Source: Frigoribacterium sp. PvP032 (GTDB lineage: Bacteria; Actinomycetota; Actinomycetes; Actinomycetales; Microbacteriaceae). Taken from it: a DNA stretch of 64,000 nt. Where the stretch lies: contig NZ_JAFIBM010000001.1 of assembly GCF_017833035.1 (NCBI RefSeq), positions 3,245,762 to 3,309,761 on the forward strand. Reading direction: 5' to 3'. The notes beneath the pieces were generated by a model. That model saw only the letters and a list, made by a program, of their open reading frames with translations, was not told where the DNA came from and searched no databases. Below are positions 43,630-59,669 of this stretch, piece after piece. Position 1 is the stretch's first letter. Every line of letters starts with the position of its first letter. The translations under genes were made by a program, and so were the position numbers.

Positions 43630-43635
43630 CGGCCC

Positions 43636-43694
43636 GTCCTAGGTCTGTGTCTCCCGCCACCGTCCGTGGGGCGGGCGAGCTGCTCGTCCTGAGC
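43636..43694 (-). promoter_or_regulatory. flbD leader with GGA-loop hairpins
   Basis: In the mRNA, hairpin GCTC-AGGAC-GAGC (43694-43682) precedes a CCAC-GGACG-GTGG hairpin (43669-43657, extended by outer CCCG/CGGG). The Shine-Dalgarno AGGACGGG (43642-43634) also contains GGA. Three GGA sites, two in loops and one at the ribosome-binding site, fit the architecture of a CsrA target. Not proven. Confidence 0.55.
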
Positions 43695-43707
43695 TGCTCA
43701 GGGGTGA

Positions 43708-43736
43708 CTATCGGCAGGGGGCCGGGCGTCGTTAGG
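43708..43736 (-). promoter_or_regulatory. FliA/WhiG-like promoter of the flbD operon
   Basis: CCTAACG at 43736-43730, 14-bp spacer, GCCGATAG at 43715-43708. Expected start near 43700, giving a leader of about 70 nt. Confidence 0.75.
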
Positions 43737-43873
43737 TGCGGGTCGTGGTGCGGGTCGGGTGCCTCCGCGGGAGCGACAAGACGACGCGGAAGATCACGCC
43801 GTTTCGTCGCTTTCGCGTCGGGACCGACGGCCGCGGGAGGGGAGGACGCAGCGCAGGAGGCGGCAGGCGACAC

Positions 43874-44710
43874 ATGCGCGCAACAGCGGGCTGGCAAGAT
43901 GCTGCGGTGACCGACACCCCCGCGAACGACGGCACGCGCGACGCCACCCCTGTCGCCCGGCCCTCCTCCCCTGCTTCACCTGCCCCCGCCACCGGCTCGA
44001 CGCCCGTCTACTCGACTCCAGAGTCCACCGGGCCGGATGCCGCCCTGTCGCCCGACACGGCGACCCCGCTGGTCGACGACCCGGCCCTGACCGAGACCGC
44101 CGCGACCGTGGACGCCAACCGGCACAGCCTGGTCGAGAACGTGATGGGGGTGGTGACGGGAGTCTTCATCGCCTCCTTCGGGCTGTTCCTGCTCAAGGTG
44201 AGCGGGGCCGTCTCGGGCGGCACCGCCGGCATCGCGCTGCTGCTCGACTACGCCGGGCCGCTGTCGTTCGGGGCGTTGTTCATGCTGGTGAACGTGCCGT
44301 TCTTCGCTCTCGCGGTGTGGAAGAAGGGGCTCGCGTTCACGCTGCGGACCGTGCTGACCGTCGGCATGGTGTCGGCCATGTCGTACCTGCACCCGGCCGT
44401 GTTCCACATCGACGACATCGACCCGGTCTACGGCACGCTCGGCGGAAACCTGCTCGTCGGGGTGGGACTGCTGATCCTGTTCCGCCACGGGGCGAGCCTC
44501 GGGGGCATCAACATCCTCGCGCTCGTGCTGCAGGAGAAGCTCGGCTGGCGGGCCGGCTACGTGCAGATGGCCGTCGACGTCGTGATCATCCTGTTCTCGC
44601 TCACCGTCGTCTCGCCCTGGATCGTGCTGCTGTCGGCCGCGGGTGCCGTGGTGCTCAACCTCGTGCTCGCCCTCAACCACAAGCAGGGGCGATACCTCGG
44701 TCGCACGTGA
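43874..44710 (+). CDS. YitT family membrane protein
   Basis: 278 residues from ATG 43874. After a disordered Thr/Pro/Ala-rich N-terminus of about 70 residues, five or six TM helices (from VVTGVFIASFGLFLLKVSGAVSGGTAG on) match the DUF161 part of YitT. The C-terminal DUF2179 domain common in larger YitT proteins is absent. Function unknown. An in-frame GTG at 43907 is another possible start, and the choice is uncertain because neither has a good Shine-Dalgarno. Divergent from flbD and unrelated to the flagellar genes. Confidence 0.75.
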   Translation: MRATAGWQDAAVTDTPANDGTRDATPVARPSSPASPAPATGSTPVYSTPESTGPDAALSPDTATPLVDDPALTETAATVDANRHSLVENVMGVVTGVFIASFGLFLLKVSGAVSGGTAGIALLLDYAGPLSFGALFMLVNVPFFALAVWKKGLAFTLRTVLTVGMVSAMSYLHPAVFHIDDIDPVYGTLGGNLLVGVGLLILFRHGASLGGINILALVLQEKLGWRAGYVQMAVDVVIILFSLTVVSPWIVLLSAAGAVVLNLVLALNHKQGRYLGRT

Positions 44711-44832
44711 CCACTTCGGGGGTGATCTGGGGGTGAACCGCTCTCAGGTCGGACACAGACTCGAGAAAGTCTCTACCTTGGGCGTCGGGCCGACGACCGT
44801 CGAGGCCACCCCGCTCTAGAGGAGTCACGACC

Positions 44833-45117
44833 ATGACCTACGACCAGAACACCCCCGCCACCACGGCCCCCGGCGCATCGGCCAAGTTCAACACGCTCGC
44901 CATCGTCGGCTTCGTGCTCGCGTTCGTCGTCAACATCGCCGGCGTCGTCGTCAGCTTCATCGCCCTGTCGCAGATCAAGAAGACCGGCGAGCGTGGCCGC
45001 GGCCTCGCCATCGCCGGCATCATCATCGGTCTGCTGTCGATCGTCTTCGGCATCGTCTACATCACGGTGCTGCTGCCCATGATCATGGAGCAGGTCGGCA
45101 ACGTCCCCACTTACTGA
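44833..45117 (+). CDS. DUF4190 family small membrane protein
   Basis: 94 residues with two TM helices (about 25-45 and 58-82) joined by ALSQIKKTGERGRGLAIAG, the typical DUF4190 signature. Function unknown. GAGGAG is 8 nt before the ATG. A strong terminator follows at 45137-45175. Confidence 0.88.
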   Translation: MTYDQNTPATTAPGASAKFNTLAIVGFVLAFVVNIAGVVVSFIALSQIKKTGERGRGLAIAGIIIGLLSIVFGIVYITVLLPMIMEQVGNVPTY

Positions 45118-45136
45118 TCTCTGCGAGACCGCCTGC

Positions 45137-45175
45137 AGGAGGCGCGGTGCCCGTTCGACGGGCACCGCGCCTCCT
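45137..45175. terminator. Terminator with AGGAGGCGCGG stem
   Basis: A perfect 17-bp stem (beginning AGGAGGCGCGGTGCCCG) with loop TTCGA lies 19 bp after the DUF4190 stop codon. It shares the decamer stem seen at 4241-4277 and 46979-47024. It may also act for the minus-strand small gene at 45194-45301. Confidence 0.9.
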
Positions 45176-45193
45176 TCGTGTCGGAGGGTGTCG

Positions 45194-45301
45194 TCAGGCG
45201 GCGGAGGCGGAGGCGCGGGTGCGGGCCCGGCGGCTCCACAGCTCTCCGATGATGATCAGGACGGCCGCGACGCCGCGGGCGCTGGTGGTGACGATGGTCA
45301 T
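45194..45301 (-). CDS. Possible 35-residue membrane protein
   Basis: A minus-strand frame of 35 codons, with AGGAG 7 nt before the ATG. It begins TIVTTSARGVAAVLIIIGEL and ends in an Arg/Ala-rich stretch, giving one short hydrophobic helix followed by a positive tail. It is too short for confident gene calling. Support comes from its ribosome-binding site and from lying just before the AGGAGGCGCGG terminator. Confidence 0.4.
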   Translation of the reverse strand: MTIVTTSARGVAAVLIIIGELWSRRARTRASASAA

Positions 45302-45423
45302 GGTGGGGCTCCTGTCCTGTGCGCGACGGTCACGGCCGAGGTCACGGCCGACATGATCGACGCGTGCGTTGCGACGACGCTACGGGCGACGTTCCACGGA
45401 CACCTCCGCCACGCGAACGAGAT

Positions 45424-46701
45424 CTACGGCGGCCAGGCCGTCCAGAGGAGGACGATCGCGACGACCTGGAGCGCGAGGCCGGTGACGATCGTGACGACCA
45501 CGCGCCTCCTCGTGGCCGACAGCTGCGGGTCGCCCAGCAGCGGTGCGAGCGGCATCAGCATCCGGAAGCTCGACTGCTGCGGCAGGAACACCGCGACGAG
45601 GTAGGCGACGTACCCGATCGCGTAGGTCTGCAGCTCGAGGCCGAGACGCTGCGACCGACGGACCAGCCCGAGCACGACCGCCGCGAGCAGCAGCACCACG
45701 GCCACGACCCCGAGCCAGCCGGCCATCGCCTCGCCGAAGCGGAACCACGGCGTGAAGGGGACGAAGCCGTCCGATCCGATGTAGTCACGCCACCACGACG
45801 ACTCCGTCGCGAAGTAGCCGTCGCGCTCGCCGGTGACCGCGGCCACGACGACCGGCCACGCGAAGCCCGCCGCCGTGACGATCAGCCCTGCCGCCCAGAT
45901 GCGGACGTGCTCGGCGAGGGGCGTGGGGGCGAGCTCGGGGTCGTCCTCGTTCTCCGCCCGGCGTCGGGCTCGGCGGCTCCGCACCAGACGCACCAGCCAG
46001 GTCAGGCCCAGCGCGGCCGAGAGTGCCAGCCCGCCCGGGTGCGCGAACGACGCGAGCACGCCGAGCACCGCGAACCAGGCCCACCGCCGCGCCGTCATCG
46101 CGAGCAGCGCGCCGAACATCAGCAGCAGGAACAGCGACTCCGCGTAGGGCACCTGCAGCATGAACGACATCGGCGCGACGCAGAAGAAGACCGCACCCCA
46201 GAAGGAGGCGCGGGCACCGAACCGCGTCAGCATCAGCCGGTGGAGCACCAGCGTCGCACCGGCTCCCGCCAGCACCGCCACGACGATCGCCGCGATCAGC
46301 CAGTCGCCGCCGACCACCGGCCGCACGACCCGCACCAGCGCCGGGAAGAGCGGCATGAACGCCCACGCGTTCTTGACGACCTGGCCGTCGTCGTTCCGCG
46401 GCAGCTCGGCGGGGTAGCCCTGCTCGGAGATCTCGCGGTAGAAGACGGCGTCCCACGACGAGAGGTAGCCCGCGAAGCCCGGGCCTCCGTCGTGCTGTGC
46501 CCAGGTCGCAGTCGCCGTGAGCGAGTGGACGGCAGCGAGGAACAGCGTCGTGACGAGGCGCGAGGCGGCGTACACGCCGAGGAGGACGAACGTCGTCGCG
46601 AGGCCGGGTCGCAGGCGGGGCCGGGGCCGGTCGGGGGTGCCAGTTCGCGGGGCGGACGGCTCCGGGCGCGTGCTGCGCCGCGCCTCCGTCCCCGTCGTCA
46701 T
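45424..46701 (-). CDS. PIG-V-like mannosyltransferase family membrane protein
   Basis: 425 residues with about ten TM helices. The first extracytoplasmic loop has YLSSWDAVFYREISEQGYP, with the acidic residue of GT-C glycosyltransferases. The pattern AFMPLFPALVRVV after it and the VPYAESLFLLL box are typical of the actinobacterial PIG-V-like mannosyltransferase family. Donor is probably polyprenyl-phospho-mannose, but substrate is unknown. Start ATG 46701 without a clear Shine-Dalgarno sequence. Confidence 0.82.
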   Translation of the reverse strand: MTTGTEARRSTRPEPSAPRTGTPDRPRPRLRPGLATTFVLLGVYAASRLVTTLFLAAVHSLTATATWAQHDGGPGFAGYLSSWDAVFYREISEQGYPAELPRNDDGQVVKNAWAFMPLFPALVRVVRPVVGGDWLIAAIVVAVLAGAGATLVLHRLMLTRFGARASFWGAVFFCVAPMSFMLQVPYAESLFLLLMFGALLAMTARRWAWFAVLGVLASFAHPGGLALSAALGLTWLVRLVRSRRARRRAENEDDPELAPTPLAEHVRIWAAGLIVTAAGFAWPVVVAAVTGERDGYFATESSWWRDYIGSDGFVPFTPWFRFGEAMAGWLGVVAVVLLLAAVVLGLVRRSQRLGLELQTYAIGYVAYLVAVFLPQQSSFRMLMPLAPLLGDPQLSATRRRVVVTIVTGLALQVVAIVLLWTAWPP

Positions 46702-46978
46702 CGATCTTGTCTACCCGGCAGGCGCTGGGAGGGCGGGCCGCCGTACCCCGCGCCCCCGCGCCCCGCACTCGGAGGTGCGGGCGACCCGCCGACATCGGAG
46801 TGGACACGTGCGGGTGCGGCTGGGCGTGGAGGTGCGCGCCCGCCACGGAGACCGGCCCCAGCTGGACCCTCGGGACCCGCGCAGGCCCGCGGGCGCGCGC
46901 GAGGGTGCGCGCGGGTTCGTGGGGTGCGGGCGCGGGCGGGCGGGCACGCGCGTGCGGCGGCAGGTGCGAGACGAGACC
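46702..46978. other. G/C-rich spacer upstream of the mannosyltransferase gene
   Basis: 277 bp with simple G/C-rich runs (GCGGGCGCGGGCGGGCGGGC near 46927-46946). I see no coding frame on either strand and no convincing promoter. It holds the upstream region of the mannosyltransferase gene on the minus strand and the downstream region of flgE. Confidence 0.5.
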
Positions 46979-47024
46979 GCAGGAGGCGCGGGCCGGTCTC
47001 GAGGACCGGGCCCGCGCCTCCTGC
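46979..47024 (-). terminator. Terminator of the fliH-flgE operon
   Basis: A 20-bp stem interrupted by one bulged G (GCAGGAGGCGCGGG...CCCGCGCCTCCTGC outer part, CCGGTC/GACCGG inner) with a TCGAG loop, 23 bp after the flgE stop codon. Its stem uses the AGGAGGCGCG decamer. Confidence 0.85.
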
Positions 47025-47047
47025 GCTGCGGCTGCAGCAGCGAGCGG

Positions 47048-48220
47048 CTAGCGCTTCAGGTTGGTGAGCTCCTGGAGGACCTCGTCCGAGGTGGTGATGA
47101 TGCGGGCGTTCGCCTGGAAGCCGCGCTGGGCGACGATGAGGTTCGTGAACTCCTGCGAGAGGTCGACGTTGCTCATCTCGAGCGTGCCGCTCGAGAGCGA
47201 GCCGACTCCGGGCGAGCCGGGGACGCCGAGCGCCGCGTTGCCCGAGTTCGCCGTGGCGCGGTAGCCCGACGAGCCGGACTTCTCGAGGCCGCCCGGGTTG
47301 GCGAAGGTCGCCAGCGCGATCCGGCCGACGGCGAGCGACTCGCCGTTGCTGAACTGCCCGACGAGGGTGCCGTCCTTCGAGAGGCTGAAGCCCTTGAGCG
47401 TGCCGGCCTCGCGACCGTTCTGGTCGGTGACGGCGACGGTGTTCAGCGCCGCGAAGCCGGTGATCTTCGACAGGTCGACGGCGATGCCGCCGACGGTCAG
47501 CGAGCCGGCGCCGTTCTGGGCACCGTCGGTGAAGGTGAGGGCGGTGCTGCCGGGAGCCCCGACGCCGTCGGTGCCGGTGACGTTCCAGCCGCCCGCGGTG
47601 CGCGTGAACGACAGCGTCAGCGTGCGCTCGGTGCCGAACGCGTCGTAGACCTTCGAGTCGCGCGTCAGGGTCTCGCCGACCGCGGTCTCGGACGGCAGGT
47701 TGCCGGCGACGTTCGCCCCGGTCGTGGCGGTGGCCGGTGCCGCGCCGTTCAGGGGCAGCATGATGTCGCCCACCGCGCCTCCGTCGTTGACGACGCCGTT
47801 CGTGGCGGAGTAGCCCTGCACGATCTTGCCGTCGGCCGAGACGAGGCGGCCGTCGGCGTCGAAGTCGAACGCGCCCGCACGCGTGTAGACGGTGTCGTTG
47901 CCGAGGCGCGTCACGAAGAAGCCGTCGCCCGAGATCATCAGGTCGGTCGCCTTGCCGGTCGCCTGCGCCGAGCCCTGGGCGAAGTTCGTCGAGATGCCCG
48001 CGACCTGCACGCCGAGGCCGACCTGCGCGGGGTTCGTGCCGCCGATGCCGGTCTGCGGGCCTCCGGCGCCCTGGGTCATCTGCGACAGGGTGTCCTGGAA
48101 CTGCGTGGTCGACGACTTGAAGCCGGCGGTGTTGACGTTGGCGATGTTGTTGCCGGTGACGTCGAGCATGGTCTGGTGCGACCGGAGACCGGAGATGCCG
48201 GAGTAGAGGGAGCGGAGCAT
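47048..48220 (-). CDS. flgE: Flagellar hook protein FlgE
   Basis: 390 residues. N-terminal rod/hook signature LRSLYSGISGLRSHQTMLDV and GNNIANVNTAGFKSS. C-terminal NVDLSQEFTNLIVAQRGFQANARIITTSDEVLQEL is the conserved hook/rod helix. The D1/D2 region is Gly/Ala/Thr-rich, as usual. The gene follows flgD with a 103-bp spacer that contains two GGA-loop hairpins. It builds the hook, exported before FliK-dependent switching. Confidence 0.95.
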   Translation of the reverse strand: MLRSLYSGISGLRSHQTMLDVTGNNIANVNTAGFKSSTTQFQDTLSQMTQGAGGPQTGIGGTNPAQVGLGVQVAGISTNFAQGSAQATGKATDLMISGDGFFVTRLGNDTVYTRAGAFDFDADGRLVSADGKIVQGYSATNGVVNDGGAVGDIMLPLNGAAPATATTGANVAGNLPSETAVGETLTRDSKVYDAFGTERTLTLSFTRTAGGWNVTGTDGVGAPGSTALTFTDGAQNGAGSLTVGGIAVDLSKITGFAALNTVAVTDQNGREAGTLKGFSLSKDGTLVGQFSNGESLAVGRIALATFANPGGLEKSGSSGYRATANSGNAALGVPGSPGVGSLSSGTLEMSNVDLSQEFTNLIVAQRGFQANARIITTSDEVLQELTNLKR

Positions 48221-48250
48221 GGGAGCTGCCTTTCGGACGGAGCTGAGGAG

Positions 48251-48286
48251 GCGCGTCCTGCGCGGAGAGACCGGTCGCGTCCTGCG
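48251..48286 (-). promoter_or_regulatory. flgE leader: two GCAGGACGCG hairpins
   Basis: In the mRNA, CGC-AGGAC-GCG (48286-48276) and GCGC-AGGAC-GCGC (48263-48251) lie in the flgD-flgE spacer, 12 nt apart and 30 nt before the start codon. Both put AGGA in a loop, as in CsrA-binding sites. No FliA-like promoter is seen here, so they would act on the operon mRNA. Confidence 0.5.
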
Positions 48287-48323
48287 TCCGGGGCGGTGCT
48301 GAGAAGTGCGGGGGGGCGAGTCG

Positions 48324-48840: not shown

Positions 48841-50556
48841 CTAGGCCAGCACGTCGATCGAGACGGTCGGCGACGAGGAGGAGGAGCGGTGCAGCCCGCC
48901 CGCTCCGGCGGCGGCCGCGAGGGCGCCGGCTCGGAGGCGATCGGGGTCGGGGTCGTCGCGACGGGCACCGTCCCCGCGGTCGCGCGACCCGGCGGTCTGC
49001 GAGGCGTCGCGCTGTGCGGAACCGTCGCGCGCCTCCTGCTGTGACTGCTGCGCCGCGCGCTGGTCGAGCAGCCGCTGCTGGTCGGCACGGTCGTCGGACG
49101 GCTGGTTCTGGCTCGAGAGATCGACGCTCGCCTGCAGCCCGGCTCCCCCGAGGTCGCGGCGGAGGTCGGGCAGGATCGCCCGCACCGCCTCACGTCCGGC
49201 GTCGGTCGGGGCGAACATCTCGACGTGCATGCCGTGGGCTCCGACGTGGGCCCTGACCGTGACCGGGCCGAGCGCCTCGGGGCTCACCGTGACGGTGACG
49301 ACGTGCGTGCCGGCACCGGCGGCCGCGAGCGAGAAGAGGGGGCGCGCGAGCTGCTGCCCGAGGGGCGCCGGAGCCGCAGGAGGTGCGGCGGCAGCCGTGG
49401 GGGCCGCCGCCGCTGTCGGAGCGGCCGGGCCGAGCGGCGCGACGACCGGCGGGGCGACGGGCAGGGCAGCGGTCGAGGTGCTGGTGGTGGCGCTCGTGGT
49501 GGTCGTGGTGGTCGTCGCGACGCCCGCGTCGGCGACGAGGGCGCGGTCGGCGGCGGTCGGCGAGGAGGCGGTCGCGAAGGCCGCCGGGACAGCTGTCGGG
49601 CGTGCGGACTCCGTCGCGGGCGCCGCCTGCGGCAGCTGTCCCGGTGTGGTCGTCGAGGACGCCGCGAGGACACCGGGCGTCGTGGGCGACGTGGACGACC
49701 CGGAGGTCTGCGGCCAGCCGCCGGTCGCCGCACCGGGCGAGCTGACCACGCCGGTCGCGGCCACGTCCGAGGCGGCGGCCGGGGTCGACGTCGCGGTCGC
49801 GGCCGACGTCGCGGATGCCGTCATGTCGACCAGGCCTGCGGGCTCGTCACGACCCTGACCCTGCGAGGGCTCGACGGTCGGCGTGTCGAGGAGGGTCGCG
49901 CCCAGGGCTGATCCGTCACGAGACGGATCCGCGACCGATGCGGCCTGCGCGAGGGCCGCCTCCTGCGGGGACTTGCCCTGCGTCGGGACGGGCGTGCCCG
50001 GAGCGACTGATCCGTCACGAGACGGATCGATGCTCAGGGCGGCCGGGTCGAGGGCTGATCCGTCACGAGACGGATCAGGGGTCAGCGCCGGATCGAGGGT
50101 CAGCGCCGGGAGCGAGGCCTGGTCGGCGATCGCGGGGAGCGGAGGGGTCGCTGATCCGTCAGCGGACGGATCAGCCCCAGGAGGGACAGCGACCGAGGAG
50201 GGAGAGGCGCCGAGCCCGGCGGCGAGCGCCGCCTGGAGGGACGTCGCCCCCTTCGGGGACGCTGCCTGTTGAGGGTGCTCGGCGACACGATCCTGGGCCC
50301 CGCGCTCCTGGGGTCCCGCAGCAGCGACCGGGCCCCCGGCGACGGCCGGTGCTGCACCGGAGGCCGGGGTCGAGGTCGGCGACGGGTCGCGCGGGGCGAT
50401 GGACGACATCGCCTCGCCGAAGCCCGCGGCGGAGTGACCGACCGACGAGCGCCCCGCGGGCGGCCGCCCGACCGGCGAACGATCGGGCCCCGAGGAGGCG
50501 TCAGCCCGGCCGGCAGGACCGGGGACGACGAACGGCAGGGTGCGGAGGACGCTCAT
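48841..50556 (-). CDS. fliK: Flagellar hook-length control protein FliK
   Basis: 571 residues. The C-terminal FliK core is recognisable: THVVTVTVSPEALGPVTVRAH then VHVEM-like AHGMHVEMFAPTDAGREAVR. The N-terminal 370 residues are a low-complexity Ser/Thr/Ala/Pro ruler region. Four repeats of DPS(R/A)DGS encoded by near-identical palindromes are inserted there (see the repeat feature). The hook length is set by the ruler region. The start overlaps the NlpC/P60 stop codon (ATGA). Confidence 0.92.
   Translation of the reverse strand: MSVLRTLPFVVPGPAGRADASSGPDRSPVGRPPAGRSSVGHSAAGFGEAMSSIAPRDPSPTSTPASGAAPAVAGGPVAAAGPQERGAQDRVAEHPQQAASPKGATSLQAALAAGLGASPSSVAVPPGADPSADGSATPPLPAIADQASLPALTLDPALTPDPSRDGSALDPAALSIDPSRDGSVAPGTPVPTQGKSPQEAALAQAASVADPSRDGSALGATLLDTPTVEPSQGQGRDEPAGLVDMTASATSAATATSTPAAASDVAATGVVSSPGAATGGWPQTSGSSTSPTTPGVLAASSTTTPGQLPQAAPATESARPTAVPAAFATASSPTAADRALVADAGVATTTTTTTSATTSTSTAALPVAPPVVAPLGPAAPTAAAAPTAAAAPPAAPAPLGQQLARPLFSLAAAGAGTHVVTVTVSPEALGPVTVRAHVGAHGMHVEMFAPTDAGREAVRAILPDLRRDLGGAGLQASVDLSSQNQPSDDRADQQRLLDQRAAQQSQQEARDGSAQRDASQTAGSRDRGDGARRDDPDPDRLRAGALAAAAGAGGLHRSSSSSPTVSIDVLA
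49910..50172. repeat. Four palindromic repeats inside fliK
   Basis: GATCCGTCACGAGACGGATC at 49910-49929, 50009-50028 and 50057-50076, and GATCCGTCAGCGGACGGATC at 50153-50172. Each is an 8-bp inverted repeat with a 4-nt loop. Read in frame, they encode DPSRDGS (three) or DPSADGS (one). Their codons (GAT, TCT, CGT, GGA and TCA) are AT-ending, in contrast to the G/C-ending codons of the surrounding gene. Confidence 0.95.
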
Positions 50557-51871: not shown

Positions 51872-53208
51872 CAGGCACCCCCGAGTCGGGCGGTCAGCTG
51901 GGCGAGCCCGGCCCACGAGGCGGCGGTGTCGGCGCGCTCGTCCATGCTCTGCTGGAGGAACGCGTCGATCGCGCCCTGGTGGTCGACGGCCGCGTCGACG
52001 AGCGGGTTCGTGCCTCGCTGGTACGCGCCGACGTCGAGCAGGTCCTGCGCGGCACGGCGCGCGGCCATCACCTTGCGGAGGCTCGTCGCGGCGGCGCGCT
52101 GCTCGGCGGTGGTCACCTTCGAGGCGACGCGTGAGACGGAGCCGAGCGCGTCGACCGACGGGAAGTGCCCGGTCACGGCCAGCTTGCGGTCGAGCACGAC
52201 GTGGCCGTCGAGGATGCTGCGGGCCGCGTCGGCGACGGGCTCGTTGTGGTCGTCGCCGTCGACGAGCACCGTGTAGAGACCGGTGACGGAGCCGACGCGG
52301 TCGGTCCCGGCGCGCTCGAGCAGCTCGGCGAGCACCGAGAACGTCGACGGCGGGTAGCCACGGGTCGCCGGCGGCTCGCCGACCGACAGCCCGATCTCGC
52401 GCTGCGCCATGGCGACGCGGGTCAGGGAGTCCATCATCAGGACGACGTCGGCGCCCTGGTCGCGGAACGACTCCGCGATCCGGGTCGCGACGAACGCGGC
52501 CCTGAGGCGCATCAGCGCCGGCTCGTCGCTGGTCGACACCACGACGACGGAGCGGGCGAGCCCCTCGGGACCGAGGTCGTCCTCGAGGAACTCGCGCACC
52601 TCCCTGCCTCGCTCGCCGACGAGCGCGATGACGCTGACCTGCGCGTCGGTGCCGCGCGCGATCATTGACAGCAGCGACGACTTGCCGACGCCCGATCCGG
52701 CGAACAGGCCGACGCGCTGCCCGCGCCCGACCGTCGTGAGCGTGTCGAGCACGCGGACGCCGAGCTGCAGCGGGGTGTCGATCCGCGCACGGTGCATCGC
52801 CGAGGGGGTCTCGTGGTGCAGCGGGACGAGGTCGACGGCGGCGCCGTCGTGACCGCGGAGGGGGCCCCCGCCGTCGATCGGGCGCCCGAGGCCGTCGAGC
52901 ACCCGACCGAAGAGGCCGGTGCCGGTGGGGACGAGGAGGGGGCGGCCGGTCGAGCGCGCCGGCGTGCCGGCCGTCACGCCCGTGAGGCGGCCGAGGGGCA
53001 TGCAGCGGAGGCCGTCGGGGGTGGTCGCGACGACCTCGGCGAGGGCGGAGGTGGTGGCGCCGATCTCGAGCACGTCGCCGACCGCGGCGTCGAGGCCGCG
53101 CACGGTGATGCCGAGCCCGACGGCGCTGACGACGCTGCCGACACGCTGCGGGCGTGCGGCGACGCGTGCGGCGGCCAGCCGGGTCTCGACGGGGGCGGTC
53201 GGGGTCAC
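51871..53208 (-). CDS. fliI: Flagellum-specific ATPase FliI
   Basis: 445 residues, F1-type ATPase. Walker A GLFAGSGVGKSSLLSMIARG near residue 168, Walker B DVVLMMDSLTRVAMAQREIG, and the ATPase beta signature PPSTFSVLAELLERAG. It powers substrate release at the export gate. GTG start 53208 overlaps fliH by 4 nt (GTGA). Confidence 0.97.
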   Translation of the reverse strand: MTPTAPVETRLAAARVAARPQRVGSVVSAVGLGITVRGLDAAVGDVLEIGATTSALAEVVATTPDGLRCMPLGRLTGVTAGTPARSTGRPLLVPTGTGLFGRVLDGLGRPIDGGGPLRGHDGAAVDLVPLHHETPSAMHRARIDTPLQLGVRVLDTLTTVGRGQRVGLFAGSGVGKSSLLSMIARGTDAQVSVIALVGERGREVREFLEDDLGPEGLARSVVVVSTSDEPALMRLRAAFVATRIAESFRDQGADVVLMMDSLTRVAMAQREIGLSVGEPPATRGYPPSTFSVLAELLERAGTDRVGSVTGLYTVLVDGDDHNEPVADAARSILDGHVVLDRKLAVTGHFPSVDALGSVSRVASKVTTAEQRAAATSLRKVMAARRAAQDLLDVGAYQRGTNPLVDAAVDHQGAIDAFLQQSMDERADTAASWAGLAQLTARLGGA

Positions 53209-54017
53209 GAGGCCCCCAGCAGAGCGGTGCGGGCACGGTCGAGAGCCGTGACGAGACGGGCGTCGACGAGGCCGTCGGGCAGGTCGACCTCGGCGTCTCC
53301 GCGGGCGAGCCGGGCGTCGGCGACGAGCGGCACCGAGGAGGCGGCGGCCGCGTCCCCGAGGGCGGCCAGGTCGGCCGGGTGCAGGCGCACGCCGACGACC
53401 AGCGTGCGGTCGAGCCCGTCGAGGGCTCGGGCGACGGCGGCGCGGGCGGTGCGGCCCTCGCGCGGGCCGGCGGGGTGGGCGGCGGCGGGCCGGGCCGGCG
53501 CGGGCTGCTCGTGGGCAGGCTCTGACGCCGCGACCTCGTAGCCGACCACGGCCGAGGCGAGGTCGAGCGCGGTCTGGACGAGCACCTCCTCGGACTCGGC
53601 GAGCACCGGCGCGACCCGCTGCCGCAGCGCCTCGGCTGCGGCGTCGAGAGCGCCGAAGGAGGCGGCCAGCGAGCGCTCGAGACGCGTCGTGGCCTCGGCG
53701 TGCTCGGCCTCCATCGCGACGCGGCGGGCGGCGAGGTCGGCCTCGGCGGCACGCAGGCCCGCGGCGTAGCCGGCCGCGTGACCGCGAGCCTCGGCTCGTG
53801 CTGCGCGCGCGGCGGCGTCGGGGTCGGCGTGGGGAGAGAGATAAGCGGAGGGGAGACCGGCGCCGCGGGTGCCGAAGGTGCCGGCGTGACCGGAGTCGAG
53901 TGCGTGGGCGGTCGTGGTCGACCCGGACCGCGCCTCCGTGAGCGAGGGGTAGACGACGCGCGAGAACGACTCCGGGGCGGAGATCGTCTCCGGGGCGGAG
54001 ATCGCGGGATCGAGCAT
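53205..54017 (-). CDS. fliH: Flagellar export protein FliH
   Basis: 270 residues from ATG 54017. The middle has GLRAAEADLAARRVAMEAEHAEATTRLERS (coiled coil with the GxxxG-type repeats seen in FliH), and the C-terminal half has VQTALDLASAVVGYE and VLVGVRLHPADLAAL, matching the FliH/YscL family. Open frame to 54413 covers the promoter and neighbouring gene and is not coding. Leader of about 70 nt with two GGA hairpins. Confidence 0.85.
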   Translation of the reverse strand: MLDPAISAPETISAPESFSRVVYPSLTEARSGSTTTAHALDSGHAGTFGTRGAGLPSAYLSPHADPDAAARAARAEARGHAAGYAAGLRAAEADLAARRVAMEAEHAEATTRLERSLAASFGALDAAAEALRQRVAPVLAESEEVLVQTALDLASAVVGYEVAASEPAHEQPAPARPAAAHPAGPREGRTARAAVARALDGLDRTLVVGVRLHPADLAALGDAAAASSVPLVADARLARGDAEVDLPDGLVDARLVTALDRARTALLGAS

Positions 54018-54050
54018 CGACGGGCCGTTCAGACGGGGGGAGGGCTGTGC

Positions 54051-54089
54051 GGCCGATCCGTGGCCAGGGGTCGAGCGATCCGTGCTCGA
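54051..54089 (-). promoter_or_regulatory. fliH leader: two ACGGATC-loop hairpins
   Basis: In the mRNA, TCGAGC-ACGGATC-GCTCGA (54089-54071) and GGCC-ACGGATC-GGCC (54065-54051). The first is right at the expected 5' end. The same pair lies in the flgB leader. Each loop displays ACGGA, a match to the CsrA core ANGGA. Confidence 0.6.
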
Positions 54090-54095
54090 GTGCGA

Positions 54096-54125
54096 CTCTC
54101 GGCACGGATCGGGGGGCGCGTAAGG
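54096..54125 (-). promoter_or_regulatory. FliA/WhiG-like promoter of the fliH operon
   Basis: CCTTACG at 54125-54119, 15-bp spacer, GCCGAGAG at 54103-54096. Expected start near 54089. Confidence 0.7.
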
Positions 54126-54177: not shown

Positions 54178-54210
54178 ATTGGAAAGTACTTGCTTAATTG
54201 GAAAGTACTT
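54178..54210 (+). promoter_or_regulatory. Twin AAGTACTT operator upstream of the regulator pair
   Basis: Two direct copies of ATTGGAAAGTACTT at 54178-54191 and 54197-54210, 19 bp apart. Each contains the palindrome AAGTACTT. The AT-rich pair lies 37 bp before the first gene of the membrane-protein/winged-helix operon, and the second copy reads GGAAAGTACTTCC. A likely autoregulatory operator or a promoter/operator overlap. Confidence 0.7.
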
Positions 54211-54246
54211 CCTAGGGTGGGAGCACATCGACGAGAGGACGAGACC

Positions 54247-54690
54247 ATGACCGACCAGACCAGGCTCCCCACGCCGGACGAGGCCCGACGGCTGCTGGCC
54301 GAGGCCGACTCGACCGGGCGCCACGCCACCGCTCGGGCTGGCTGGCCGGGAGTCGCCGTGCTGCTGTCGCTCGGCTCCGTGCTCTCGCTCGGCACGCTCG
54401 CCCTCGGGCTCACGACGGGGACGAACTACTTCGTGGCGATGATCGCGCTGTTGGTCTGGATCGGGGTCGTGGTGGTGTTCCAGCTCGCGTTCCTCAGGTC
54501 GCACCGGATCGGGTTCGGCCGCCGCTGGGGCCTCTACCTCGGGGTGATCTTCGCGATCTACGTCGTGGCGATGGTCGTCGTCGGCTCGTCCCAGGGCCAG
54601 GACGTCGTCGGCACCTGCGTCCTGGCCGCCGCGCTGATGGTCGTCTCCGTCGCCGCGGCGACGCACGAGGCCCGGCAGGCGGAGCGATGA
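54247..54690 (+). CDS. Membrane protein co-transcribed with a regulator
   Basis: 147 residues with four TM helices (about 35-55, 60-80, 97-115 and 120-138). The N-terminal 30 residues are cytoplasmic-type (TPDEARRLLAEADSTGRHA). Such small membrane proteins paired with a winged-helix regulator are common in actinobacteria, but the function is not known. The start ATG is preceded by AGAGGA, and the gene overlaps the next by 4 nt (ATGA). Confidence 0.75.
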   Translation: MTDQTRLPTPDEARRLLAEADSTGRHATARAGWPGVAVLLSLGSVLSLGTLALGLTTGTNYFVAMIALLVWIGVVVVFQLAFLRSHRIGFGRRWGLYLGVIFAIYVVAMVVVGSSQGQDVVGTCVLAAALMVVSVAAATHEARQAER

Positions 54691-55079
54691 GCGGCGACGG
54701 TGCGGGGTCGGGCCCGGGCCCGGGCCCGGGCCCGGGCTCGGGGTCGGGGAGCGTCGCCGGTGCGGGGGGCGACGGCACGTCCCGCGGTCCGCACCCGCGC
54801 CTCCGGCTGTCGGAGACCCTGCACCAGCCGGTGCGGTTCTCGATGGTGGCGGCGCTCGCGGCGGCCGACCAGCTCGACTTCAAGGACCTGCGCGACGCCG
54901 TCCAGGTGACCGACTCCGCGCTGAGCAAGCAGATCAGCACGCTCGAGGTCGCGGGGTTCGTGAAGGTGTCGAAGGGATTCGTCGGCAAGCGGCCGCGTAC
55001 CTCGCTCAAGCTGACGCCGGAGGGGCGAGCCGCCTGGACCGCGCACCTCGCCGTGCTGCGCGAGATCGCCGCCGGCTAG
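54687..55079 (+). CDS. Winged-helix transcriptional regulator
   Basis: 130 residues. The C-terminal 90 residues are a winged-helix DNA-binding domain of the PF13601 (MarR/ArsR-like) type: LHQPVRFSMVAALAAADQLD, FKDLRDAVQVTDSALSKQIS (recognition helix) and SLKLTPEGRAAWTAHLA. An N-terminal Gly/Pro/Ser low-complexity tail (SGPGPGPGPGSGSG) is encoded by a CGGGCC repeat. Probably a repressor of its own operon via the AAGTACTT sites. Confidence 0.85.
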   Translation: MSGDGAGSGPGPGPGPGSGSGSVAGAGGDGTSRGPHPRLRLSETLHQPVRFSMVAALAAADQLDFKDLRDAVQVTDSALSKQISTLEVAGFVKVSKGFVGKRPRTSLKLTPEGRAAWTAHLAVLREIAAG

Positions 55080-55120
55080 GACCGCGGCTGGCGTCGCTCC
55101 TCGCGTCGCCTCGCCTCGCG

Positions 55121-55195: not shown

Positions 55196-55256
55196 CAAAG
55201 CGAGACACATCCTGCCCAGACCGGCCGCGCCTCCTGGGCTCGATGTCCATCGCACC

Positions 55257-55288
55257 CCGGATCACTCTCAAATTTGAGAGTGATCCGG
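55257..55288. promoter_or_regulatory. 32-bp perfect palindrome
   Basis: Perfect inverted repeat centred on AAATTT, with half-site ATCACTCTC flanked by CCGG. Perfect symmetry suggests a dimeric operator or a remnant of a transposable element end. A degraded copy of its left half lies at 55621-55639 in direct orientation. Confidence 0.9.
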
Positions 55289-55639
55289 TCGCGAGCCCAG
55301 GAGGAGCGGTCCGAGCAGCGCGGGACCCCACAGAACCCGACAGAACGAGCCCGGAACGCGCTCTAGTATCCGGATATCCCCGTATTGCAGCCTCACCGGT
55401 CGGCATTTCCCGACCTGAGCGAAGGAGGCGCGGGCGGCGCAGCGAACGACGCCACAGAACCCGACAGAACAAGCCCGGAACGCGCTCTCGCACCTGGACA
55501 TCCCCGTATTGCGGCCTCACCGGTCGGCATTTGCCGACCGGGCAGTCGCCGTCGCAGTCGCAGAGCGAGACAGATCTGCTCCTGCGAGGGCACGGGACCG
55601 GGCAGGGCTGGGCGCTCGCAGCCGGATCACTCTCGGATT
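55270..55639. mobile_element. Possible MITE-like noncoding element
   Basis: 370-bp segment whose ends are inverted repeats of 19 bp (AAATTTGAGAGTGATCCGG at the left; AAATCCGAGAGTGATCCGG, as its reverse complement, at the right), 17 of 19 identical. Weaker similarity continues inward (GCGAGC and CCAG). No coding frame or transposase is inside, and I could not find a clear target duplication. The left end overlaps the 32-bp palindrome, so coincidence or two palindromes is an alternative. Confidence 0.35.
55328..55539. repeat. Two 88-bp direct repeats near fliG
   Basis: Copy A 55328-55415 and copy B 55452-55539, about 92% alike. Each starts CCACAGAACCCGACAGAAC and ends with a small hairpin (GGTCGG...CCGACC). 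Between them is an AGGAGGCGCG decamer. Both lie in the convergent spacer and have no coding capacity. Confidence 0.9.
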
Positions 55640-55669
55640 TCGAGGTGAGCAGCGGCACGGTTGCGCGGG

Positions 55670-56752
55670 CTACTCGACGAGGGCGTCCTCGTCGGCGCGG
55701 TGGATCGTTATGGTGCCGAGCGCCTCGAGCTCGCGGATGGCTCGCACGACCTCGGCCCGCGCCTCCTCGACCTGCGACTTGCGGACGGGCCCCATCGACT
55801 GCAGCTCGTCGTCGAGCAGCTCGCGGTTGCGCTCCGAGACGTTGCCGCGGATGACCTCGGTGACGGCGGCGAGCGCCCCCTTCATCGCGGTCGCGAGCAC
55901 GGCGGCGTCGATCCCGCGCAGCACCTGCTGGATGTCACGCGACTCGAGCTTGACGATGTCCTCGAAGGTGAGCATCCGCGAGCGGACCTCCTCGGCGAGC
56001 TCGGGGTCGCGCTCGTCCAGGCCGTCGAGCAGGGCGCGCTCGGTGGCGCTGTCGCTGCGGTTGATGATCTCGACGAGCGGCTGGATGCCGCCCACGACCT
56101 CGACCTGTTCGCGCGGGGCGACGACGGCACCAGCGCGCACCTTGAGGGTGGTCGCGACGATGCCGACGGCCTCGGGGGTCGCGGTGCCCATCGTGGCGAT
56201 GGCCTGGGCGACGTCGGTGCGGGCGGCGACGTCGAGACCGGCGAGCACGGCCGAGGCCTGCTGCGGCCGCAGGTGCGCGAGCACGAGGGCGATGGTCTGC
56301 GGCAGCTCGCCGTCGAGCAGGGTGATGACCTGGCCGGGGTCGGCCTCGTCGAGGAACTCGAAGCTCTTGCCCATCGCGTTCGAGGCGAGGCGCTCCATGA
56401 CGCCCGCGGCGCGCTCCGAGCCGAACGACGCCTCGAGCAGGCCGACGGCGACGTCGTGCCCGCCGCGGCGCTGGTAGCGGCCCGAGCGGGTCAGGTCGTG
56501 GAACTCGGCAATGGCCGACTCGGCCACCGCAGGGTCGACGCGGCGCAGCTTGACGATCTCGGCCGTGATCTCCTCGGCCTCCTCCTCGCTGAACTGCTTC
56601 ATGACGACGGCGGCGTGCGCCTGCTCCATCTGCATGAGGATGACCGCGACCTTCTGCGGCCCCGTCAGCGCCGGGCGCGCGACAGGTGCACCGAACGCGG
56701 CAGGCACGCCGAACGCCTGCGTCGGGGTCAGGTCGGCCGCGGTCGCGCTCAC
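55670..56752 (-). CDS. fliG: Flagellar motor switch protein FliG
   Basis: 360 residues. N-terminal GPQKVAVILMQMEQAHAAVV, middle AHLRPQQASAVLAGL and the C-terminal torque helix RMLTFEDIVKLESRDIQQVLRGID are typical. The two Asp that face MotA in enteric FliG (VDDR) are Glu-Ser (LESR). It couples to FliF and FliM. GTG start overlaps fliF (GTGA). Last gene of the flgB block; the convergent spacer beyond it holds the repeats. Confidence 0.96.
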   Translation of the reverse strand: MSATAADLTPTQAFGVPAAFGAPVARPALTGPQKVAVILMQMEQAHAAVVMKQFSEEEAEEITAEIVKLRRVDPAVAESAIAEFHDLTRSGRYQRRGGHDVAVGLLEASFGSERAAGVMERLASNAMGKSFEFLDEADPGQVITLLDGELPQTIALVLAHLRPQQASAVLAGLDVAARTDVAQAIATMGTATPEAVGIVATTLKVRAGAVVAPREQVEVVGGIQPLVEIINRSDSATERALLDGLDERDPELAEEVRSRMLTFEDIVKLESRDIQQVLRGIDAAVLATAMKGALAAVTEVIRGNVSERNRELLDDELQSMGPVRKSQVEEARAEVVRAIRELEALGTITIHRADEDALVE

Positions 56753-58443
56753 GACTGGACCCGCTCGTCCATCAGGCCGCGCAGCAGCTCGGCGGTCTTC
56801 TCCGGGTCGCGCTCGGCGAGAGCGTCGATCTCGGCGCGGCGGCGCTCGGCCGACACGTACTCGGGCGAGGGCTCGGGGGCGGCGACGGGCAGGGCCACGG
56901 TGGCGGCCTCGTCGGCGAGCAGCTGACGGCGGGAGGCGGCGCCCGCGTCGTCGAGGTCGAGCCGCATGGTCGCGTCCCAGGTCTGGGCCGGGTTGCCGGC
57001 CGAGAGCTCGCCGAGGTCGACGTCCTCCCGGTCGTGGCGCTTGTTCTTCTTCGCGAACACGATCAGCCCGACGATCAGGGCGATCACGATCAGCGCGGCG
57101 ATCCCGACGGTGCGGATGGTGCCCCACATCGCCTCGGAGGCGGCAGCCGCGTCGGCTGCGGCGAGCGCCGCCTTCGCGGCGTCGGCACCCTCGGTGTCGA
57201 AGTCGACCAGCGCGACCTCGACGGCGTCGCCGCGCGCCGCGTCGATCCCCGCGGCGTTCCGCACGAGGTCGTTGATGCTCTGCATGTTCACGCCGGAGGC
57301 CGCGTTCGCGTCCAGCGCGACCGACACGGTCTGCCGGCTGACGCCTCCTGCGGGCACGCTCATGGTCTCGGTGACCTTGTCGACCGCGTTGTTCTTGGTG
57401 GCGGACTCGTTGACGTAGCCGTCGTCGCCGGTCGCCGTCGGCGTGCCGGCCGCGGCCGCGCCCGTGCCGGTGCCGTTCGGCACGGCGATGTTGTCGGGGC
57501 CGAGCACGCCGGTCGAGCCGGCGCCGCCTGCTCCCGCGGAGCCCGCGCCGTACTGCTCTGTCGTGCTCGACTCGTTCAGGGCGATCGGGCCGCTGGTGGG
57601 CTGCGCGAACGACTCGGTGACCTTCGTGCCCGAGCTCTGGTCGAGGTCGGCGGCGACGATCACGGACGACTTGCCGGGGCCGACGACCTTGTCGAGCATC
57701 GTCTGCACGGCGGTCTGGACCTTCGACTCGTAGTCGCTGACCTGGTCGCCGGCGCCGCCGACGGCTCCGGTGCCGACCTGCGAGAGCACGGCGCCGGTCG
57801 AGTCGGTGACGGCGACGTCGGTCGTTGCCATGCCCTCGACGGAGGCGCTGGTCAGGTTCACGATGGCCTGCACCTGCTTGCTGGTGAGGGTCGCGCCGCC
57901 CTGCGTCTCGACGAACACGGACGCGGTGGGGTCCTCCTGCTCGGCGACGAAGACGGACTCCTCGGGGATCGCGAGCTGCACGCTGGCGGTCTTCACGCCG
58001 TCCATCGCCGAGATGGTCTTGGCCAGCTCTCCCTCGATGGCGCGCTTGTAGGTGACGTCCTGCTGGAACTCGGACGAGGTGACGCCCATCGTGTCGAGCA
58101 GCGAGTAGCCGCCCTGGCCGCTGGTCGAGGGCAGGCCGGCTGCGGCTGCGGTGAGGCGCTCCTGGTAGACGTGCTCCTCGGGCACGAGGATCGTGCCGCC
58201 GCCCGCGGTCAGCTCGTAGGGCACCCCGTCGGCCTTGAGCTGCTCGACGATGGCGCTCGCGTCGGCGGGCTCGATGCCGCTGAACAGCGGCGACCAGCTC
58301 GGCTTCGTCAGCCAGCTCACGAGGGCGACCGTGCCGAGCACGAGCGCGGCGATCAAGATGACCGCGATGGTCTTCTGGGCGACGGAGAAGCCGCCCATGG
58401 TCGCCCGCATCCGGGCGAGGGAGTTCTGCACTGCGGTCGGCAT
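56749..58443 (-). CDS. fliF: Flagellar MS-ring protein FliF
   Basis: 564 residues. TM helices at about 24-45 and 441-463 flank the ring-building domains (PLFSGIEPADASAIVEQLKA, EGELAKTISAMDGVKTASVQLAIP, then SVSVALDANAA-like). The cytoplasmic C-terminus, ending with RDPEKTAELLRGLMDERVQS, is the FliG-binding motif. It is the base of the MS ring. Start ATG 58443, overlapping fliE. Confidence 0.96.
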   Translation of the reverse strand: MPTAVQNSLARMRATMGGFSVAQKTIAVILIAALVLGTVALVSWLTKPSWSPLFSGIEPADASAIVEQLKADGVPYELTAGGGTILVPEEHVYQERLTAAAAGLPSTSGQGGYSLLDTMGVTSSEFQQDVTYKRAIEGELAKTISAMDGVKTASVQLAIPEESVFVAEQEDPTASVFVETQGGATLTSKQVQAIVNLTSASVEGMATTDVAVTDSTGAVLSQVGTGAVGGAGDQVSDYESKVQTAVQTMLDKVVGPGKSSVIVAADLDQSSGTKVTESFAQPTSGPIALNESSTTEQYGAGSAGAGGAGSTGVLGPDNIAVPNGTGTGAAAAGTPTATGDDGYVNESATKNNAVDKVTETMSVPAGGVSRQTVSVALDANAASGVNMQSINDLVRNAAGIDAARGDAVEVALVDFDTEGADAAKAALAAADAAAASEAMWGTIRTVGIAALIVIALIVGLIVFAKKNKRHDREDVDLGELSAGNPAQTWDATMRLDLDDAGAASRRQLLADEAATVALPVAAPEPSPEYVSAERRRAEIDALAERDPEKTAELLRGLMDERVQS

Positions 58444-58808
58444 CAGGCCTGCATCCTCATGATCTCGGTGAAGGCGTCGACGCCCTTGTTGCGGACGGCG
58501 GCGACGAGCTCGAGCGTCACCTGGGCACGGGTGGCCGCGATGGTCGCGTCGTGGATGTCGGTCAGGTCGCCGGTGACGGCCTTCACGGCGAGCGTCTTGG
58601 ACTGGCTCTGCAGCTGCTGCAGGCCCTCGACCGCGCCGACCATGCTCGACCCGAAGGCGGCACCGGAGGCGCTGGCGGCGCCGGTCGTGCCGGTGACGGA
58701 GGAGGCGCCTCCTGCGTTCCCGACCGCACCGCCCTGCAGCAGCGCGGACACGTCCGCGTAGCCCGACGGCGCCACCGCGCCGACGGCGGGGATCCCCCCG
58801 ACCGGCAT
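58443..58808 (-). CDS. fliE: Flagellar hook-basal body protein FliE
   Basis: 121 residues. The C-terminal half, GDLTDIHDATIAATRAQVTLELVAAVRNKGVDAFTEIMRMQ, is the FliE signature. N-terminal Gly/Ala-rich region. It is the adaptor between the MS ring and the rod. ATGA overlaps on both sides. Confidence 0.93.
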   Translation of the reverse strand: MPVGGIPAVGAVAPSGYADVSALLQGGAVGNAGGASSVTGTTGAASASGAAFGSSMVGAVEGLQQLQSQSKTLAVKAVTGDLTDIHDATIAATRAQVTLELVAAVRNKGVDAFTEIMRMQA

Positions 58809-59203
58809 CAGCCGCGGCCGATCTGGAGAGCGGCCTCGTAGGCGGTCTTGGCACGGTCCACCACGGCGGCGTTCGCCTGGTAGCCGCGCTGGGCCATGAT
58901 CAGGTCGGCCATCTGGGCTCCCAGGTCGATGTCGGGCATGCGCACGTATCCCTCGGCGTCGGCGAGCGGGTGGTCTGGCAGGTAGGTGACGCGGCCGGCC
59001 TCGCTGCCGTAGCGGTCGGCCTTGACGAAGACGCCGCTGGTGCCGGCGCCCTCCTGGACCTCGACGTAGCGGGCCTGGAACGCGGTGTCGTCCATCGACT
59101 TGACCGTGTCGACGTTGGCGATGTTGTCGGAGACGGCGTCGAGCCACTTGCGGTGCACGGTCAGGCCGGTGCTCGCGATGCCGATCGCGTCGAAGGCCGT
59201 CAT
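58808..59203 (-). CDS. flgC: Flagellar rod protein FlgC
   Basis: 131 residues. FDAIGIASTGLTVHRKWLDA and DNIANVDT at the N-terminus and VRMPDIDLGAQMADLIMAQRGYQANA at the C-terminus are the rod-protein signature. Confidence 0.95.
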   Translation of the reverse strand: MTAFDAIGIASTGLTVHRKWLDAVSDNIANVDTVKSMDDTAFQARYVEVQEGAGTSGVFVKADRYGSEAGRVTYLPDHPLADAEGYVRMPDIDLGAQMADLIMAQRGYQANAAVVDRAKTAYEAALQIGRG

Positions 59204-59562
59204 CAGCCCATCCTGAACGCGGCGCGGACGCTGGTCAGCTCGCCGTTCATCGCCTGCGTGGCGAACTGGTAGCGGAGCACCGTGTCGATGTTCGACAGCG
59301 TCTCCGTGTCGAGGTTGACGTTGTTGCCGTCGAGCCGCGTCGGCTCGAGCGAGCGCTGCGTGGTCGCCTGCACCTGGCCGGCCCCCTGCACGCCGCCGCC
59401 CTGGGCGACCGACCGGCCGAGCGCCTCCTCGAACTGCACGCGCTTGGCCTGGTAGCCGGGCGTGTTCACGTTCGAGATGTTGGCGGCGATGGTCTTCTGG
59501 CGCAGCGAGAGGCCGTCGAGGGCGCTCTGCAGCGCCGCCTGGGTCACGGATTCGATCGGCAT
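59203..59562 (-). CDS. flgB: Flagellar rod protein FlgB
   Basis: 119 residues. LSLRQKTIAANISNVNTPGYQAK and NNVNLDTETLSNIDTVLRYQFAT are typical of the proximal rod protein. First gene of the flgB-flgC-fliE-fliF-fliG block. Start ATG 59562; a GGACGGG precedes it. Leader contains GGA hairpins and the promoter is at 59641-59669. Confidence 0.95.
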   Translation of the reverse strand: MPIESVTQAALQSALDGLSLRQKTIAANISNVNTPGYQAKRVQFEEALGRSVAQGGGVQGAGQVQATTQRSLEPTRLDGNNVNLDTETLSNIDTVLRYQFATQAMNGELTSVRAAFRMG

Positions 59563-59594
59563 TGGTGCCCGTCCGGGGTGTGGTGTGGTCTGGG

Positions 59595-59632
59595 GGCCGA
59601 TCCGTGGCCGAGGGGTCGAGCGATCCGTGCTC
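59595..59632 (-). promoter_or_regulatory. flgB leader: two ACGGATC-loop hairpins
   Basis: GAGC-ACGGATC-GCTC (59632-59618) and GGCC-ACGGATC-GGCC (59609-59595). They match the fliH leader in sequence and spacing (7-8 nt between cores). A third GGA (CCC-GGAC-GGG) lies about 10 nt before the start codon. Candidate CsrA binding sites. Confidence 0.6.
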
Positions 59633-59640
59633 AGGGCGCT

Positions 59641-59669
59641 CTATCGGCGCGGGTCGGGGGTGCGTAAGG
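59641..59669 (-). promoter_or_regulatory. FliA/WhiG-like promoter of the flgB operon
   Basis: CCTTACG at 59669-59663, 14-bp spacer, GCCGATAG at 59648-59641. Expected start near 59633, 71 nt before the flgB ATG. Confidence 0.75.

Follow-up and report, generated by a model that had tools for sequence, protein, structure and literature searches.

How early flagellar genes are controlled in Frigoribacterium sp. PvP032 is the question raised by a stretch of 64,000 nucleotides (nt), here called the window (G000:C1:3245762-3309761 of a 3.33-Mb single-contig genome), in which hairpins with GGA in the loop precede several flagellar operons. An earlier note had proposed that four of these leaders, those of flgB, fliH, flbD and flgE, form a CsrA regulon. 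Judged from sequence, part of this claim stands. The leaders of flgB and fliH carry conserved tandem GGA hairpins in a genome that also holds csrA and fliW, and they are very probably CsrA targets, as is the leader of the flagellin gene hag, which lies outside the window and is added here. The flbD leader is a possible target, and that of flgE an unlikely one.

The central element occupies 44 nt of the flgB leader (59592..59635, minus strand) and follows the design GAGC(AYGGAYN)GCTC, 6-12 nt, GGCC(AYGGAYN)GGCC. Hairpin 1, GAGC(ACGGATC)GCTC, lies at 59618..59632 and hairpin 2, GGCC(ACGGATC)GGCC, at 59595..59609, both on the minus strand; at the Shine-Dalgarno position, CCCGGACGGG (59568..59577, minus strand) offers a possible third GGA site with a stem of 3 base pairs (bp). 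The same pair of hairpins had been described for the fliH leader and is present there on the minus strand as well (element at 54048..54090, hairpins 1 and 2 at 54073-54087 and 54051-54065). The spacing, given as equal in the two leaders, is nearly so, with 8 nt between the hairpins at flgB and 7 nt at fliH.

The conservation of the flgB element is marked. Eighty loci with named records, mostly from Micrococcales, were retrieved via FliI, and flgB was located in 74 of them by tblastn; where the flgB start could be placed (73 loci), both hairpins are recognized by motif in 71. A strict site was defined as a GGA-loop hairpin with a stem of at least 4, and sets of 100 nt upstream of each gene were searched. 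Among 73 flgB sequences (locus L063 left out, the window added), 72 contain at least one strict site and 67 at least two, as compared to at most 4 and 0, respectively, in any of 20 rounds of shuffling. The control sets contain a strict site in 0/73 sequences for flgC, 0/36 for fliI, 0/19 for flgD and 1/44 for motA. In 101,947 bp of the organism's own DNA, 55 strict hairpins occur on both strands, so that two in one leader of 75 nt are very unlikely to arise by chance.

Fifty-eight leaders were used to build a model of the element (R1). Searched with it at E<=0.01, 79 loci yield 77 matches. By position and gene reading, 71 of these lie at flgB, three at fliH, one at a fliP-like start, one at a glycosyltransferase gene and one, a weak match (20.8 bits), on the other strand of L047. 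Eight loci lack a match placed at flgB, and six of these hold no flgB. In the organism's own genome the flgB and fliH elements rank first and second (59.2 and 56.0 bits), and the next match, at 26 bits, has no GGA loop. Both hairpins nearly always present the loop AYGGAY(N), yet their stems differ (GAGC/GCTC versus GGCC/GGCC). CsrA/RsmA targets present GGA in short hairpin loops, typically as ANGGAN, and such GGA loops are seen at flgB, fliH, hag and one flbD hairpin of the window. Within the loop, GGA and the A two positions before it are kept in nearly all sequences, while the other positions drift. The distance from GGA to GGA is 21-27 nt in 71 sequences (23 nt in 35 of them), which lies inside the bridging range of CsrA, given in the excerpted text of the review PMC7652899 as 10-63 nt with an optimum above 18, and would thus suit a single CsrA dimer. 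The 7-mer ACGGATC was also tried as a marker of the element and rejected, since the window contains about as many copies as expected (17 against 15.2). Eight of the 17 copies belong to four inverted repeats, GATCCGTC-N-GACGGATC, in the presumed fliK coding region (49905-50174, minus strand). Rfam gives no match in the window at the gathering score, and no report of the flgB element was found in the open-access literature searched, subscription papers being mostly outside that search.

At flgB and fliH the hairpin element lies directly 3′ of a promoter box. The pattern CTWACG...GCCGAKAG, which is presumed here to be of the sigma-28 type, occurs seven times in the genome: at flgN, fliM, flbD, fliH, flgB and hag, and in one other place. 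Six of the seven sites are thus at flagellar genes, and the reversed control pattern gives none. Within the window the genome search locates these sigma-28-like promoters on the minus strand at 59641..59668 for flgB (CTTACG...GCCGATAG), 54096..54124 for fliH, 43708..43735 for flbD and 41326..41353 before fliM, the last without a GGA hairpin. The fliH promoter spacer also contains an inverted copy of ACGGATC (54104-54110, plus strand). In the relatives, a looser form of the box is found in 63/72 flgB, 41/46 flbD and 39/48 hag sequences (letter-shuffled means of 6.0, 3.5 and 2.4), and it stays at background for flgC (5/73) and flgE (8/68). Measured from the C of the CGAT-like box, the distance to the start of hairpin 1 is 13-17 nt in all but one of 71 flgB loci, and 6 nt in that one. 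Judged by these promoter-like boxes, the flgB mRNA would presumably begin at the element.

Copies of the element at fliH are shared by L003, L004 and L080, that is, two other Frigoribacterium and one Microbacterium, and L032, a metagenome-assembled genome (MAG) labelled Frigoribacterium, has the flgB copy only. Two-hairpin elements were also observed before a fliP-like gene of Microbacterium galbinum (L076, 18731-18774) and before a family 2 glycosyltransferase gene (PF00535) adjacent to a Cellulomonas flagellar cluster (L049, 2246-2289). It seems from these sequences that the element can accompany flagellar operons other than that of flgB. Elsewhere in the window, a hairpin GTTCC(ACGGAT)GGAAC at 19409-19424 (plus strand) stands shortly before an open reading frame (ORF) without Pfam match (19451-20209) and is possibly a further CsrA-type site.

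The hag leader affords the best candidate CsrA target of the genome, and its sequence argues for CsrA more strongly than those of flgB and fliH. It combines a hairpin with the loop AYGGAY and a GGA-bearing Shine-Dalgarno site, and in Frigoribacterium sp. PvP032 it ends with CACGGAAGAGGAAACACC before the start. Flagellin starts were obtained in all but 2 of 50 loci; a strict site is present in 46 of 49 hag leaders (two of which come from one genome), and GGA at -20..-4 in all 48 hag leaders of the relatives. Here the stems covary. In an alignment of 44 distinct hairpins, drawn up after four leaders in which no hairpin fitted had been removed (two of them restored by letters), both sides change in six of eight pairs, and the covariation score of 0.344 is above all 500 shuffles (0.122) and all slid versions of the alignment (at most 0.099). 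In L083, a flagellin leader (6117-6206, complement) was seen with TGTCAGCCC(ACGGAC)GGGCTGACG and a GGA-bearing Shine-Dalgarno sequence.

The proteins needed for such control are encoded in the same genome. The csrA gene, said in the earlier note to end the third flagellar block, does so, although it lies at 31826..32116 (minus strand) and hence outside the span treated there (43636..59669). It is the sole csrA match in the genome (PF02599, E 5.9e-24), and its product matches solved chains of the CsrA family; fliW is present as well. FlgM (PF04316) was not found in this genome, in line with the excerpted part of PMC2587704, and a divergent anti-sigma factor in its place is conceivable. In the organism's own class or nearer, FlgB and CsrA are carried by the same seven genomes. 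A csrA match occurs in 59 of the 63 FlgB genomes, and the four without it are assemblies of 70-220 contigs that lack the flgB site as well. The presence of csrA was therefore rejected as a test against the presence of the element: nearly all FlgB genomes have it.

The case for the flbD leader is weaker and restricted to certain lineages, and on sequence grounds CsrA control of it is possible and partly supported. The features described for it are all present on the minus strand, namely, GCTC(AGGAC)GAGC at 43682..43694, CCACGGACGGTGG (CCAC-GGACG-GTGG) at 43657..43669 and the GGA-containing Shine-Dalgarno sequence CCTAGGACGGG at 43633..43643. A strict hairpin occurs in 14 of 47 flbD sequences including the window, with stems that differ (GGGTTC/GGACCC, CGACCC/GGGTCG and GGCTCC/GGAGCC, for example). 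The sites belong to records of Cellulomonas, Actinotalea, Sanguibacter and Flavimobilis, to a few Microbacteriaceae and to one unplaced MAG; no strict site was found in the leaders of 14 Arthrobacter, 9 Cryobacterium and 1 Sinomonas, nor in L004.

The two hairpins reported for the flgD-flgE spacer also exist (48251..48286, minus strand: CGC-AGGAC-GCG at 48276-48286 and GCGC-AGGAC-GCGC at 48251-48263), but the CsrA reading is not supported there, and they are probably incidental. There is a good probability that they, and possibly the short flbD hairpins of the window too, arose by chance in a G+C-rich genome. Just 4 of 69 flgE upstream sequences, including the window, have any site, the site of the window is common to L003 only, and the minimum-energy fold of the spacer contains neither GGA hairpin. 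Promoter patterns before flgE occur in 8/68 sequences against 5.4 in shuffles and in 0/68 against 1.9, and the background of strict sites in this DNA is the one given above. Such an origin fits less well with the retention of both flgE hairpin sequences in L003 and, for flbD, with 14 occupied leaders against a shuffled mean of 0.8.

The evidence that the flgB element acts as RNA comes partly from outside the order. Within the Micrococcales the core pairs are almost invariant, so covariation cannot decide between RNA and DNA. What supports RNA there is the design with two hairpins, together with the differing stems of distant lineages and with hag. Fifty of the 62 other FlgB genomes were examined, 5 from the same order and 45 distant. 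A site is present in 4 of the 5. Of the distant leaders, 13 have at least one site (shuffled mean 1.5, maximum 5) and 7 at least two; one of the 13 positives, L210, was added because R1 matched it. In these lineages the loop is constant and the stems vary, as in CCGGCTCC(ACGGATC)GGAGCCGG, CGTCCC(ACGGAC)GGGACG and GCCG(ACGGAC)CGGC. A scan of 396 genomes of the phylum with R1, which is tuned to Micrococcales stems, matched seven and was not used as evidence; the distant matches L211 and L212 have no flagellar gene behind them and were taken as chance. Folded by itself, the 44-nt element forms both hairpins in 64 of 70 cases. Taken together, the shared loop on unlike stems, the paired stems of distant lineages and the hag covariation favour an element that acts as RNA.

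A number of observations weigh against this view and against CsrA as the ligand. Of the distant flgB leaders, 32/45 have no site, nor does L188, one of the five further genomes of the same order; L078 (Mobiluncus) and L082 carry csrA and no flgB element. The flgB core stems are almost invariant in Micrococcales, with a covariation score of 0.065 against 0.056 and 45 of 500 shuffles as high. The expectation that stems be conserved in relatives is borne out for the flgB stems and loops, so strictly that covariation is small; flbD shows it in part, with different stems, and flgE does not. The base next to the flgB stem pairs in 45 of 71 sequences, no more than in shuffles, and at flgB most loops have 7 nt. 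The flgB leader alone is no more stable than its shuffles (z +1.01), the minimum-energy fold of fliH lacks hairpin 2, and both hairpins appear in the minimum-energy fold of 24 of 69 whole leaders and of 0/69 once 25 nt of coding sequence are added. Moreover, the 63 FlgB genomes provide no clean flagellated genome free of csrA for contrast. Two measures were discarded as evidence: fold energy, in which the flgB, fliH and flgE leaders do no better than shuffles, and outer-stem covariation at flgB, which is at shuffle level for position 1 and somewhat above it for positions 2 and 5.

The effect of the coding sequence on folding points to a possible pairing between leader and gene. In the window, codons 4-6 of flgB (59545-59553) read GAA TCC GTG, which is complementary to the loops of the hairpins, so that CACGGAU can pair with AUCCGUG; in most relatives the codons concerned are 3-5, and GAW-TCC-GTG is a conserved inverted copy of CACGGAW. 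Holding both hairpins is predicted to cost a median of 7.4 kcal/mol with 25 nt of flgB coding sequence, as compared to 1.1 without it, and the native loop-codon pairing exceeds the mean of synonymous controls in 53 of 71 sequences. TCC is used in 55/72 early codons against 180/550 later in the gene, and GTG in 56/72 against 186/529, with p-values that ignore relatedness. Five other flagellar genes also lean to TCC in their early codons (139/295, mostly from flgE; GTG 27/129), and this lean weakens the codon-bias argument; pairing also does not account for the use of GAT for Asp (34/45), and no covariation was seen between early codons and loops. With the hairpins held, the predicted accessibility of the start rises from 0.28 to 0.41 (70 sequences; changes above 0.2 are upward in 24 and downward in 3), whereas that of the Shine-Dalgarno sequence moves just from 0.36 to 0.40. 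These predictions are a hint that leader-coding pairing is relevant to the regulation of flgB.

If CsrA binds at flgB, the sign of its action has to be considered. Positive action is given about an even chance, somewhat better than repression, because of the placement of the hairpins and the predicted leader-coding pairing. Repression, through translation block, decay or premature termination and as expected at hag, is a real though lesser possibility. It is described as prevalent for CsrA in the excerpted text of PMC7652899, and it would agree with the third GGA that 37 of 70 flgB leaders and the window's own have at -20..-4, as well as with the GGA in the flbD Shine-Dalgarno sequence of the window. 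On the other hand, the flgB hairpins lie well upstream: from the second GGA to the predicted start codon there are 32-66 nt (median 40). A GGA close to the Shine-Dalgarno sequence is lacking in 33 of the 70 leaders, whereas those of hag all have one.

Two further explanations dispense with CsrA. The repeats could be a DNA operator for a transcription factor bound just 3′ of the promoter, with the inverted GAWTCCGTG of the first codons as a further half-site; the near invariance of stems and promoter distance would suit it, as would these codons and the inverted ACGGATC within the fliH promoter. It is nevertheless improbable. What the two hairpins have in common is the nonpalindromic loop, their palindromic arms differ from each other and among distant lineages, at flgB, fliH, flbD and hag alike the sense strand carries the GGA of the hairpins, and the hag stems covary. 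An RNA structure that serves 5′-end stability or a leader-coding switch with no need for CsrA is more doubtful still. Such a structure would explain why the element starts at the presumed +1 and why pairing between its loops and early codons is predicted to exceed that of the synonymous controls, but not the retention of GGA and its A amid otherwise drifting loop positions, the return of the same loop in hag next to a Shine-Dalgarno GGA or the way in which csrA tracks flagella in this class.

Under CsrA control with activation at flgB, a sigma-28-type polymerase would start transcription just before hairpin 1, and one CsrA dimer would bridge both GGA loops of the leader. By holding the 5′ hairpins closed, CsrA may protect the 5′ end and keep the loops off the early codons, while the same protein, covering the hairpin and Shine-Dalgarno site of hag, would repress flagellin, with FliW as its antagonist. 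Where the operon is divided, the element stands at fliH as well. A wider proposal, tentative and rather unlikely as it stands, is that CsrA-FliW constitutes an early/late switch in flagellated Micrococcales, where early and late flagellar genes would share a promoter type and FlgM was not found in the genome tested. Early on, free CsrA would turn on the basal-body operon and hold off flagellin; once the hook is done and flagellin is exported, FliW would take CsrA, and flagellin would come on as the basal-body operon goes off.

The genomic setting consists of three flagellar blocks on the minus strand, with genes Pfam-supported where tested. Block 1 (59562 to 55670) comprises flgB-flgC-fliE-fliF-fliG, with flgB at 59203..59562 (minus strand, PF00460). 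Block 2 (54017 to 47048) comprises fliH-fliI, a gene at the fliJ position, an NlpC/P60 gene, a gene at the fliK position and flgD-flgE; fliH (53205..54017, minus strand; PF02108 on 53205-54020) likely starts at the ATG at 54017, as read from the sequence. Block 3 (43629 to 31826) runs flbD-motA-motB-fliM-fliN-like-fliO-fliP-fliQ-fliR-flhB-flhA, followed at the flhF position by a gene that has no Pfam match, and then by csrA. The names fliJ, fliK and flhF are given from gene position alone. Between fliG and fliH, the plus strand (54190-55079) contains the gene of a winged-helix protein (PF13601) and an ORF to which Pfam gives no match. Outside the window, the same genome has a sigma-70-family gene, hag and fliW by Pfam and, judged by eye, genes resembling flgN, flgK and flgL. 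FliI of the window is 91% identical to that of Frigoribacterium endophyticum over the best segment. Two retrieved loci, L063 (titled Vibrio cholerae) and L062 (titled Acidobacteria MAG), have actinobacteria-like clusters, and their labels look wrong or contaminated.

Comparison with known systems draws on excerpts of PMC2587704, PMC7652899, PMC4894983 and PMC10746217. As in the Hag-FliW-CsrA loop of B. subtilis (PMC7652899), the genome has csrA, fliW and two GGA sites in the leader of flagellin, of which one is in the Shine-Dalgarno sequence; unlike in that loop, GGA hairpins stand here also before the early basal-body genes flgB and fliH. The placement at flgB resembles rather the leader of E. 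coli flhDC, likewise an early flagellar operon: a pair of CsrA-type sites lies close to the 5′ end of the mRNA (a presumed end at flgB) and away from the Shine-Dalgarno sequence, which CsrA covers in hag. In flhDC, CsrA is reported to shield that end against RNase E (PMC7652899). The analogy crosses gene and phylum, and protection at flgB is a proposal. In Campylobacter jejuni, according to the excerpted text of PMC4894983, CsrA of the CsrA-FliW system binds many flagellar leaders besides that of flagellin, and the flaA leader has two ANGGA stem-loops. The predicted sites described here likewise extend beyond flagellin, whereas flgB of C. jejuni was hardly enriched (1.6x, 1.6x, 0.7x and 0.9x in its table row), and deletion of csrA left the levels of FlaG, FlaB and FlgI without substantial change. 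For Kineococcus, the parts consulted of PMC2587704 likewise report csrA in the flagellar island and a flagellin Shine-Dalgarno region that matches the B. subtilis site; they propose CsrA control for flagellin only and have no flgB element. In the excerpt of a paper on actinobacterial flagella, CsrA and FliW appear merely among the proteins searched for, and no experimental study of CsrA targets in this phylum was found in the open-access literature searched.

The order thus keeps a CsrA-type element at the flgB operon and a classical flagellin target in the same genomes. If the CsrA reading is true, the CsrA-FliW system would extend from flagellin homeostasis to the early flagellar genes; if activation at flgB is true as well, CsrA would time the early base of the flagellum as well as its late filament, with opposite signs at flgB and hag.

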